Shown: positions 20,892 to 26,203 of the stretch, in pieces
How positions within the stretch are numbered: position 1 is the stretch's first letter
Layout: every line of letters begins with the position of its first letter
Assembly: GCA_945867815.1 (NCBI GenBank)
Contig: CAMBIX010000006.1
Coordinates: 1 to 64,000, forward strand
Reading direction: 5' to 3'
DNA: 64,000 nucleotides
Source: an uncultured Veillonellaceae bacterium
Lineage (GTDB): Bacteria > Bacillota > Negativicutes > Veillonellales > Veillonellaceae
Translations under genes and position numbers: made by a program
The notes under the pieces: generated by a model
Databases searched by the model: none
Seen by the model: only the letters and a program-made list of their open reading frames with translations
What the model was told of the DNA's origin: nothing

Positions 20892-21059
20892 TTATTCAGC
20901 TGGGTGAATTGTACCTACTGGGCAAACGGATTCGCAAGAACCGCAGTCGATGCAAGTATCATTAATTTCATACTTAGTTTCGCCTTCGGAAATAGCGCCT
21001 ACTGGGCAAACAGATGCGCAAGAACCACATTTAATGCAATCATCACCAATAACTCTCAT
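20892..21059 (-). CDS. 2[4Fe-4S] ferredoxin
   Basis: A 55-aa clostridial-type ferredoxin, a soluble low-potential electron carrier. It contains two CxxCxxCxxxCP motifs: CIKCGSCASVCPVG near residues 8-21 and CIDCGSCESVCPVG near 36-49. These bind two [4Fe-4S] clusters with the normal cysteine crossover. GGAGG lies 7 nt before the ATG. It has a near-consensus promoter and its own strong terminator, pointing to high monocistronic expression. Electron partners such as hydrogenase or pyruvate:ferredoxin oxidoreductase are likely but not shown here. Confidence 0.95.
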   Translation of the reverse strand: MRVIGDDCIKCGSCASVCPVGAISEGETKYEINDTCIDCGSCESVCPVGTIHPAE

Positions 21060-21145
21060 TGTATAGACCTCCGAAAAAAATCATATATAAGAGCAACCTA
21101 CTTAGGCTGCCTTTTTATGAGATACTTACCTCAAATTTCGTTCTC

Positions 21146-23230: not shown

Positions 23231-24082
23231 ATGTACAAACAAATTGGATTAAAACTATTACTGACCATCGTCGCCATTCTAGCCTGCATCGGCTTATATA
23301 CAGGCTTTACCTGGGAAACGGCACCAGACTATAACCTTTATGGCGTCCCTGTCTTAAACTACCATGAAGTAAACGATGATAAATTCTCTCCTCTCGCCAT
23401 GGGAATCGGCCATTTTGAACAACAAATGGATTACCTACACAAAAACGGTTATCACACCATTACACCCGACCAGTTATATGACTATCTCACCAAAGGCACG
23501 GCTCTGCCAGATAAGCCTGTACTCATCACCTTTGATGATGGCTATGAAGATAATTACAAAAACGCCTTTCCTTATCTCCGTAAATATAATATGAAAGCTA
23601 CCCTCTTTGTTATTGGCGATGACGTAGGTAAGCCGAACTTTATGACGGCAGCCCAACTTCAAGAAATAGACAAGCAAAATATTGATGTACAAGGCCACAC
23701 CTGGACTCATCGCGATATGCGTAAATTATCCTACCAAGAAGTCCTTGACGAACAAACCCACGTAAAGCACTACTTGGAGAATCTACTACATAAACCCATT
23801 TACTATACAGCCTACCCTTGTGGCTTTACCTCTCCGACCGTAGAAGCCGCCACCAAGGCGGCAGGTTACCGTCTAGCTTGGACTGTAAAAACAGGCGATG
23901 ACAAACCAGGGCAAAATCTATACGCCCTGCCTCGTATGCCTGTCTTTGAAGGTGACGACGCCTTCCTAAGTTTGCGCTTACGCCTTCATATGTCCCCTAC
24001 CGTTACCGATTTATGGACTTTACGTGATGATTTGGTAGCTCGTCATTTGTATTGGTTAGCTAATTTTGTACCATTATTTTAA
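23231..24082 (+). CDS. Membrane-anchored polysaccharide deacetylase (NodB domain)
   Basis: A 283-aa protein with a hydrophobic N-terminal segment (residues 7-25), probably a signal anchor, and a NodB-type CE4 domain. The metal-binding motif TFDDGYEDN is at 100-108 and the HTWTHRDM histidine motif is near 155-162, so zinc-dependent N-deacetylase activity is plausible. Likely substrates are cell-envelope polysaccharides or peptidoglycan; the sequence does not decide. It is one of three plus-strand genes, alone, and followed by unusual tandem hairpins that could terminate it. Confidence 0.9.
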   Translation: MYKQIGLKLLLTIVAILACIGLYTGFTWETAPDYNLYGVPVLNYHEVNDDKFSPLAMGIGHFEQQMDYLHKNGYHTITPDQLYDYLTKGTALPDKPVLITFDDGYEDNYKNAFPYLRKYNMKATLFVIGDDVGKPNFMTAAQLQEIDKQNIDVQGHTWTHRDMRKLSYQEVLDEQTHVKHYLENLLHKPIYYTAYPCGFTSPTVEAATKAAGYRLAWTVKTGDDKPGQNLYALPRMPVFEGDDAFLSLRLRLHMSPTVTDLWTLRDDLVARHLYWLANFVPLF

Positions 24083-24102
24083 TAAGAAATAAATAGATAA
24101 AA

Positions 24103-24166
24103 AGAGAGGCGTATCTCGCCAAAGAGCCTTAAGTTATACTAGCTCACAAAGGATACGCCTCTTTTT
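24103..24166. terminator. Structured hairpin element, copy 1 (terminator)
   Basis: Outer stem AGAGGCGTATC (24105-24115) with GATACGCCTCT (24152-24162), inner stem GAGC-GCTC and a 14-nt apical loop, followed by TTTTT on the plus strand. The minus strand also ends in CTCTCTTTTT. It probably terminates the deacetylase and, from the other side, thrS. Confidence 0.65.
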
Positions 24167-24187
24167 CTATTTCTATGCACACGAAGA

Positions 24188-24250
24188 AGAGAGGCATATC
24201 CCGTCAAGAGTCTTACATAATACCAGCTCACGAGGGATGTACCTCTCTTT
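24188..24250. repeat. Structured hairpin element, copy 2
   Basis: A diverged copy of the preceding hairpin, 85 bp further on. The outer stem AGAGAGGCATATCCC (24188-24202) pairs with 24234-24248 with one mismatch and one wobble. The inner stem is GAGT-GCTC and the apical loop ends ACCAGCTCAC as in copy 1. Confidence 0.6.
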
Positions 24251-24292
24251 CATTATGTCCTTATTTTATTTATTGTAACTATCTTTTATCTA

Positions 24293-26203
24293 TTAAGCAC
24301 GGTCCTTAACTTCTTTTTGAATCTGTGCTAAGAAATCTTGCCACTTCATTGTACCCTGTTCTCCTTGTCCGCGTTTACGAATGGCAACTGTTCCATCTTC
24401 TGCTTCGCGGTCACCCACAACTAACATATAAGGTACCTTTTCCATCTGTGCCTGACGAATCTTATAGCCAATCTTTTCATTGCGGTCATCTAATTCCACA
24501 CGAATGTAAGCTTTCTTAAAGGCCTGACGAATTTCTTCCGCATAGGCATTATGTTTTTCACTAATTGGCATAATCTTAACCTGTACAGGAGCCAACCAAG
24601 TTGGGAACGCACCAGCATAATGTTCAATTAGGATACCAATAAAGCGTTCCATAGAACCAAAGCAAGCACGATGAATCATAATTGGTTGATGTTTCTGTCC
24701 ATCTTCACCAATGTATTCCATATGGAAACGTTCTGGCAAGTTCATATCTAACTGAATCGTACCACACTGCCAAGTACGTCCCAAGGAATCCCGAATATGG
24801 TAATCAAGCTTAGGACCATAGAAAGCACCGTCCCCTTCATTAATCTGGTAAGGAATCTGCTTTTCTTCAATAGCTTCCTTCAGAGCCTGAGTAGCCATAT
24901 CCCAAATCTTATCATCCCCCATAGCATTGTCTGGTTTTGTACTTAATTCAACACGATATGTTAAACCAAACTGGCTATAAATACGATCAAATAAGTCCAT
25001 AACGCTCATTAATTCCGACTTAATCTGAGATGGCAACATGAATACATGCGCATCATCCTGAGTGAAACTGCGTACACGGAACAAACCATGCAAGGCACCA
25101 CTTAGTTCATGACGATGGACAAGACCTAGTTCAGCCATACGTATTGGTAGATCTCGGTAAGAATGGGGTTCGTTTTCATAAACCAAGATACCACCTGGGC
25201 AGTTCATTGGTTTAATAGCATAATCTTCCCCATCAATTTTCGTTGTGTACATATTTTCACGATAATGATCCCAGTGACCAGACTGTTCCCATAACTGGCG
25301 GTTCAAAATAATCGGCGTACGTACTTCTTCATAATCAAAATCATGATGCACTTCCCGCCAGAAATTTTCTAATTCATTGCGAAGAGCCATACCCTTTGGC
25401 AAGAAGAATGGGAACCCAGGCCCTTGTTCCTTAATAACGAACAAGCCTAATTCTTTACCCAATTTACGATGGTCACGGCGAGCCGCTTCTTCTAATAAAG
25501 CAATATAATTATCTAATTCAGCCTGTTTTTCAAAAGCCGTTCCATAAATACGCTGCAACATCTTATTCTTTTCATTACCACGCCAGTAAGCACCAGCTAA
25601 GCTCTGTAATTTAAAGGCTTTTACCTTGCCTGTGGAAGCCAAATGCGGACCTGCACAAAGGTCTATAAAATCGCCTTGTTTGTAAGTAGAAATAACCGCA
25701 TCAGCTGGCAAATCATTAATTAGCTCTACCTTATAATCTTCCTTCTTACTCTTAAACAAGTCTAAGGCTTCTTGACGGGACATAACTTCCTTCGTAATTG
25801 GATAATTTTCCTTTACGATTTTATGCATTTCCGCTTCAATTTTAGGCAAATCCTCTGGCACCAATACATGTTCCATATCAATGTCATAATAGAAACCATT
25901 TTCAATGGATGGACCAATGGCTAATTTAGCTTCTGGCCAAATCCGCTTAATAGCCTGAGCCATAACATGAGAAGCGGTATGACGAAGTGTATCTTTACCA
26001 CCCTGATCAGCAAAAGTTAAAAAATTAACATGCGAACCATCAACTAAAGCTTCTCGTAAATCTGTCGTTTGTCCATCTACGTCAGCAGCTAAAACTTTCT
26101 TAGCCAAACTATTGGAAATCGCTTTAACCGCTTCCCCTAACGTTGTACCAGCTGGATAGGATTTACTACTGCCGTCTGGTAATATAATTGCTACATCTGC
26201 CAT
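24293..26203 (-). CDS. thrS: Threonyl-tRNA synthetase
   Basis: Charges tRNA-Thr. The 636-aa protein shows the N-terminal TGS domain (residues 1-62), the editing domain with HTASHVMAQAI near 76-86, and class II catalytic motifs (MNCPGG, RSFTQDDAH). The C-terminal anticodon-binding domain starts about residue 540. Length is normal. The ATG follows TAGGAGG. Expression is controlled by a T-box leader at 26375-26613 with its own promoter, so the gene should be induced when tRNA-Thr is uncharged. Confidence 0.97.
   Translation of the reverse strand: MADVAIILPDGSSKSYPAGTTLGEAVKAISNSLAKKVLAADVDGQTTDLREALVDGSHVNFLTFADQGGKDTLRHTASHVMAQAIKRIWPEAKLAIGPSIENGFYYDIDMEHVLVPEDLPKIEAEMHKIVKENYPITKEVMSRQEALDLFKSKKEDYKVELINDLPADAVISTYKQGDFIDLCAGPHLASTGKVKAFKLQSLAGAYWRGNEKNKMLQRIYGTAFEKQAELDNYIALLEEAARRDHRKLGKELGLFVIKEQGPGFPFFLPKGMALRNELENFWREVHHDFDYEEVRTPIILNRQLWEQSGHWDHYRENMYTTKIDGEDYAIKPMNCPGGILVYENEPHSYRDLPIRMAELGLVHRHELSGALHGLFRVRSFTQDDAHVFMLPSQIKSELMSVMDLFDRIYSQFGLTYRVELSTKPDNAMGDDKIWDMATQALKEAIEEKQIPYQINEGDGAFYGPKLDYHIRDSLGRTWQCGTIQLDMNLPERFHMEYIGEDGQKHQPIMIHRACFGSMERFIGILIEHYAGAFPTWLAPVQVKIMPISEKHNAYAEEIRQAFKKAYIRVELDDRNEKIGYKIRQAQMEKVPYMLVVGDREAEDGTVAIRKRGQGEQGTMKWQDFLAQIQKEVKDRA

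Follow-up and report, generated by a model that had tools for sequence, protein, structure and literature searches.

The twin hairpins in the window, a stretch of 64,000 nucleotides from the genome of an uncultured Veillonellaceae bacterium, belong to a family of structured hairpin repeats that is specific to its lineage and dispersed over the genome. The copies probably lie at transcript 3' ends and would serve there as a 3'-end module. The family is real, abundant and restricted to its lineage, and it represents a variant of dispersed hairpin repeats with an RNA-like architecture.

The twin hairpins and their copies in the genome

Both hairpins lie in the gap between two convergent genes, at 24101-24166 and about 24186-24250. 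The sequence-only reading had placed two copies of an element there, 85 bp apart, and this observation proved real: the copies align, and their starts are 85 nt apart. The features of the locus are as follows.

23231..24082, + strand: polysaccharide deacetylase family gene, convergent neighbour, whose end at 24082 is about 16 nt from the hairpins
24098..24167, - strand: hairpin copy 1, second behind thrS; arms of the outer stem P1 at 24101-24116 and 24151-24166
24183..24251, - strand: hairpin copy 2, first transcribed behind thrS; P1 arms at about 24186-24205 and 24232-24250, with the conserved head between them
24293..26203, - strand: thrS, threonine--tRNA ligase, ending at 24293, with the twin hairpins at its 3' end

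Copy 1 has an outer stem of 16 bp and a GAGC/GCTC inner stem, formed by 24124-24127 with 24142-24145 in the plus-strand fold. The outer stem of copy 2 is interrupted and has 18 pairs, and the proposed pairing of GAGT with GCTC in its inner stem is seen in the fold. The inner stem of GAGC-GCTC type is present as described, but the inner part consists of two helices, P2 and P3, the latter imperfect in copy 1. The unit spans about 67-70 nt rather than the 63 nt claimed at first, and the loop ends TACTAGCTCAC and TACCAGCTCAC were recognised in the aligned copies. Each hairpin folds better than 200 of 200 dinucleotide shuffles on either strand, with z values of -4.2 to -6.2. A simple terminator scan that admits loops of 3-8 only, a limit that shuts out heads of this kind, reported neither of them on the minus strand. 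The window also contains an 84-nt repeat at 20907-21074, present as two head-to-tail copies with 70% identity, the first of 20 direct-repeat families listed.

The genome comprises 17 contigs with 1,968,100 bases (1.97 Mb) and is the sole representative of its genus in the comparison. A plain DNA search across all contigs revealed other hairpins that share the interior and have different outer stems. The genome search with covariance model R1, built from 12 sequences that match by construction while the others do not, yielded 82 matches up to E=5, of which 71 had E<=1e-5, so further copies exist, as a family of hairpins would require. In the extracted loci R1 gave 68 distinct aligned matches at E<=1e-6, and model R2, built from these 68 copies, returned 85 matches at E<=0.05 in the genome, mostly its own training copies. 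Out of several hundred first-look candidates, 82 to 150 were scored in the whole-genome searches (150 of about 550 for R1 and R2), and the counts may be low. At the other end, the weakest matches could be long hairpins of the ordinary kind, and therefore we take about 70 clear copies as the safe count, with up to 85 in all. R1 found no third copy in the 64-kb window. Copy 1 scored 63.9 bits with R1 and 57.8 bits with R2, and copy 2 scored 71.8 and 60.6 bits, both copies being in the training sets of both models; the two are more alike than 95% of all copy pairs. The pattern GCTGGTN{5,12}AAGGC matched 57 times against 3 times for the reversed control, many of the 57 being plainly not the head.

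Structure and paired change

In most copies a conserved two-helix head is enclosed by a variable outer stem, P1, of about 16 bp. Read on the upstream gene's strand, the predicted fold is a rod, in which P1, of nearly free sequence, is followed by an internal loop, P2, a small internal loop, P3 and the cap. The internal loop above P1 is UC / UAC in subtype B. P2 is GAGCU / GGCUC with variable extensions, the small internal loop is RR / A, and P3 is UAC/GUA, closed by a small cap. The head consensus is approximately CCC-UCG-(N)GAGCU-RR-UAC-UAUC-GUA-A-GGCUC-UUUAAC-GGG. Among the 68 aligned rows, head columns hold U in 67, C in 59 and G in 59, then G in 62, A in 64, G in 62, C in 66 and U in 64; the next two positions are purines in 66 and 63 rows, an A precedes the 3' half GGCUC in 66, and the letters of GGCUC occur in 62-65 rows each. 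Such a head, fixed across about 70-85 copies, bears out the suggestion that the loop is conserved beyond what terminators show. P1 is free in sequence except at its top (C-Y-Y opposite R-R-G types), and nearly every copy has its own stem sequence. By eye, one subtype has the cap UAUC; subtype B is marked by a longer P3, a cap resembling UUCG and short conserved flanks of its own; and a third subtype, whose foot resembles CTTTTCTCAAATAA, frequently begins no more than a few nucleotides from the stop codon.

In the alignment of the 68 copies, which was fitted to the model and leans towards the structure, 94.6% of the pair cells are standard-paired against 68.5% in shuffles, and 434 cells are changed on both sides against 124. 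The covariation score is 0.682 versus 0.186 in shuffles, structures slid by 1-3 columns reaching 0.203 at most. Two-sided change occurs in 20 of 24 pairs versus 16.1 in shuffles, and 1 of 500 shuffles was as high. Covariation beyond both the shuffled and the slid controls, the mark of a structured RNA, is therefore present. Within the head, 8 copies have G-C in place of A-U in P3, and the extension pairs of P2 differ among copies.

The 36 closest copy pairs, which are not independent of each other, show 72 double changes from Watson-Crick to Watson-Crick, 8 other double changes and 29 one-sided changes, of which 11 give G-U, 14 A-C and 4 other combinations. Two copies at locus L081 lie 705 nt from each other, and the only difference in their modelled P1 is one fully compensated pair. 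Over all P1 cells, G-U (44) is not significantly above A-C (30; p=0.13), and therefore the pairing of P1 does not single out RNA. That G-U shows no clear excess argues against selection at the RNA level being all that maintains P1. The arms seem to change as pairs, which might reflect either very strict selection on perfect pairing or the rewriting of one arm from the other by template switching at replication. Template switching at quasipalindromes is described as a mutational route in E. coli in PMC7202029. It would treat both strands alike, and the P1 pattern may be tied to it in this way.

Some copies are directly preceded by an extra, slightly diverged 5' arm, as if duplicated by slippage.

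L016, about 1570-1594, - strand: extra 5' arm
L072, about 1803-1827, - strand: extra 5' arm
L053, about 1541-1565, + strand: extra 5' arm

Orientation, dispersal and distribution

Positions were evaluated on 90 aligned matches less 4, of which 3 lay on the opposite strand of counted copies and one (L014:1746-1813) was weak and dropped by hand; 84 of the 86 kept rows have an upstream gene in the stretch. With genes called as simple ORFs, 76 of these 84 copies stand behind a same-strand gene (p=5e-15) and 8 do not. They begin 3 to 415 nt past the upstream stop, with a median of about 40 nt. In co-directional gene gaps 46 of 53 copies point with the genes (p=4e-8); 30 copies lie in convergent gaps, 1 of 84 in a divergent gap, and 3 of 86 overlap a called ORF of at least 80 codons. 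The window pair, behind the minus-strand thrS, fits this rule. The sequence-only reading had described the elements on the plus strand, whereas the strand that follows the upstream gene throughout the family is the other one, minus here. Position and direction together make a role at the transcript end most likely, and from the orientation we infer a function as RNA. The host genes are varied, including those for enolase, RecG, YchF, ribosomal protein L9, transketolase and several transporters; 28 of the 30 scanned (64 listed) have a Pfam family, at most the C-terminal 366 aa being scanned.

The 3' feet were examined in 83 of the 86 rows, 59-79 nt long. At least 5 T in 7 nt were found at the 3' foot in 46 of 83, on the mirror side in 39 of 83 and further downstream in 22 of 83; the foot count for subtype B is 9 of 25. 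As the U-run is fair in only about half of the copies, termination alone is doubtful for many, and many copies are probably not textbook intrinsic terminators.

L034 and L047 share 68 nt at 97% identity, and elsewhere in about 3 kb only two 15-nt matches at chance level. Their hosts, membrane-transport and ribonucleotide reductase genes, are unrelated. Therefore, the hairpin was copied as a unit. Among the 85 listed copies, 17 pairs are neighbours within less than 300 nt; in 13 of them the two copies share a direction and in 4 they are opposed. Uniform scatter would give about 1.1 such pairs, a naive expectation that is too low because it ignores the confinement to gene gaps. When 10 tandem pairs were compared, 7 proved more similar than 87% of all pairs and 3 came out near the median, and therefore tandem copies are not always local duplicates. 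Comparison of sequences thus demonstrates dispersal as a sharp-ended unit and local tandem duplication, in addition to the family itself, its covariation-based structure and its orientation behind genes. At L081, a duplicated set of two hairpins (1319-1506 and 2048-2211, - strand) flanks a thioesterase-family gene, each set being one family hairpin and a second, of weaker score, with a CGTCAA-type stem.

R2 has matches at E<=0.001 in 13 of 28 family genomes, the window's genome included. Outside its own genus, the same kind of head (CAAACUGAUACUAUCGUUAGGUUUG) occurs only in 5 of the 6 genomes of sister genus g2, at one or two loci. In 5 of 5 the hairpin stands behind leuB on the same strand, 19-26 nt past the stop, and in 3 of 5 a second one stands behind a PepSY-domain gene, 134-148 nt past the stop (leuB and PepSY were named on L084 and L103, and the other g2 loci by the same C-terminus). 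The head of the leuB copies is kept and P1 drifts a little. A pattern scan of named genomes gave 5 matches. Veillonella sp. VA137, VA142 and 3891 carry the leuB hairpin, and g2 is therefore taken to be a Veillonella clade; matches in two unrelated MAGs (L089, L091) were rejected as chance, the outer stem being absent. With stricter filters, 61 genomes of the order gave matches at E<=1e-5 only in the window's genome and three of g2.

Within 260 nt behind thrS the element was found in 0 of 27 relatives, where other hairpins stand (judged by eye and by no R2 matches), and a different hairpin follows the leuB of the window's genome. Positional orthology behind thrS or leuB is not conserved between the genera. 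Based on the sharing with g2 and on these shifting sites, we propose that the family probably predates the split of the two genera, multiplied in the window's genus and changes places. R2 matches in g3 (5 of 7 genomes) and g4 (2 of 14) were rejected as members, having long stems and, by eye, other heads. These terminator-like long hairpins (L095, L096, L097, L100 and L107 in g3; L098 and L101 in g4) show, by eye, a similarly short internal loop (UC / UAC or UC / UUC), two similar ones lie about 810 nt apart in two genomes, and they possibly represent further head families.

Known families and the proposed role

Rfam gave no match at the window elements at the gathering threshold, and at seven other loci with E up to 5 it gave sub-threshold matches only, those over the elements being mostly microRNA-precursor models with E of 0.65 or worse. 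Viral contigs had 0 matches to two exact core patterns and no phage match was found, while plasmid records yielded only one 27-nt match (E 0.4); a viral, phage or plasmid origin was rejected, as those records hold no copies. The element is not described in the open-access literature consulted, including PMC8632094, PMC2267715, PMC7202029 and PMC3733652. PMC2267715 catalogues stem-loop sequence families in 40 bacterial genomes, which resemble the present family as repeated stem-loops with many members outside genes; its main text contains no Veillonella and neither of the terms compensatory and conserved loop.

The nearest known relatives in character are the REP/REPIN elements, which are likewise short dispersed palindromes, mostly behind genes, clustered and plausibly transcribed; extragenic location in many copies is matched here by 71-85 copies, 76 of 84 behind same-strand genes. 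In REPs the stem is conserved rather than the head. The present family, with its free stem and conserved head, is the reverse, and it also differs in its length of about 70 nt, compared with 20-40 nt, in its strict orientation with the upstream gene and in having neighbours mostly in the same direction, whereas many REP families pair in opposite orientation. According to PMC3733652 and PMC3116915, REP/REPIN palindromes carry GTAG or CGTC tags, and the GTAG ones are thought to be mobilised by RAYTs; the CGTC ones are said to lack a dedicated RAYT. GTAG was found in 6 of 83 copies near the 5' end and 3 of 83 near the 3' end, and CGTC in 0 of 83 at either end, giving no consistent tag. The Y1 transposase/RAYT family (PF01797) has 0 matches at E<=1e-5 in the window's genome, while 13 of 28 family genomes have one; a Y1 transposase was thus rejected as the mover. 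Neither tag nor Y1 transposase being found, the family is therefore not classed as REP. In the sister genus g4, Y1 matches reach up to 12 per genome, some of them fragments (e.g. G003, G012, G040).

A selfish DNA hairpin repeat of REP or MITE-like type, recognised as single-stranded DNA by a trans-acting mobilising enzyme and placed at gene ends by insertion tolerance, is a conceivable but unlikely account. Copying as an exact hairpin unit, the flanking letters peculiar to subfamilies, clustering, and P1 pairing without significant strand asymmetry would suit it. However, the absence of a Y1/RAYT-type transposase (the search being limited to Y1) and of a consistent tag argues against it, the stems differ in nearly every copy, and the orientation with the upstream gene is stricter than insertion tolerance needs. 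The idea of a mobile hairpin family or structured RNA put forward from the sequence is upheld by the copy number of about 70-85, the conserved head, the strong covariation and the unit dispersal, but the search for Y1 transposases identified no mover. We also consider it rather unlikely that the element is a self-propagating RNA/DNA hairpin, whose fixed head would be recognised, whose arms would be rewritten by template switching, and whose copies the host would use as a 3'-end module read at the head. In that case, nearly every copy would carry a fresh but well-paired stem.

It is improbable that the hairpin is a cis-regulatory or protein-binding RNA whose head binds a dedicated protein or ligand controlling termination or decay of many genes. 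Conservation of the head far above that of the stem, covariation within it (the P3 switch, 8 cells, and the P2 extensions) and its retention behind the sister-genus leuB while P1 drifts a little are consistent with such a role, but the scanned hosts have no common function, and the other hairpins behind thrS in 27 relatives and behind the genome's own leuB leave no fixed regulon to be seen.

The family shares with intrinsic (Rho-independent) terminators the position behind stop codons and the long stem, and about half of the copies have a U-rich foot, little more often than on the mirror side; unlike them, it has a large, structured and conserved head, a weak U-run in many copies and the nature of a repeated family. 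Ordinary intrinsic terminators with inner parts alike by chance or regional duplication are highly improbable: the sites are those of terminators and several copies have A-runs before and U-runs after, but about 70 copies share the head despite different stems and neighbours, the thrS hairpins of 27 relatives lack it, and none of the 61 genomes of the order reaches E<=1e-5 apart from those of its own genus and g2. Chance likeness of the inner parts is refuted, which leaves the reading that termination may be the sole effect. In DNA uptake sequence terminators, the repeat forms the stem arms. Those terminators, as presented in PMC2267715, also have a repeated motif possibly doubling as terminator, whereas in the present family the stem is free, the repeat is the folded interior and the copies number in the tens.

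We thus favour the reading that the element is a REP-like repeat which acts at the 3' end of transcripts, as terminator or as stabiliser. The rod would form during transcription of the gene's 3' end. At copies with a U-run behind P1, transcription would terminate; elsewhere, or in addition, the rod may protect the 3' end and could block 3' exonucleases. The conserved head may be kept because something reads it, either a protein or the copying machinery.

As a rule, a conserved stem is what marks dispersed palindromes in bacteria. In this family it is the interior that is fixed, the stem being free, and even close copies differ by more paired than single changes. With about 70-85 stems in one genome, the family is a natural set in which compensatory change by selection can be compared with template switching, and it suggests that the Veillonella family has a 3'-end structure not yet described.
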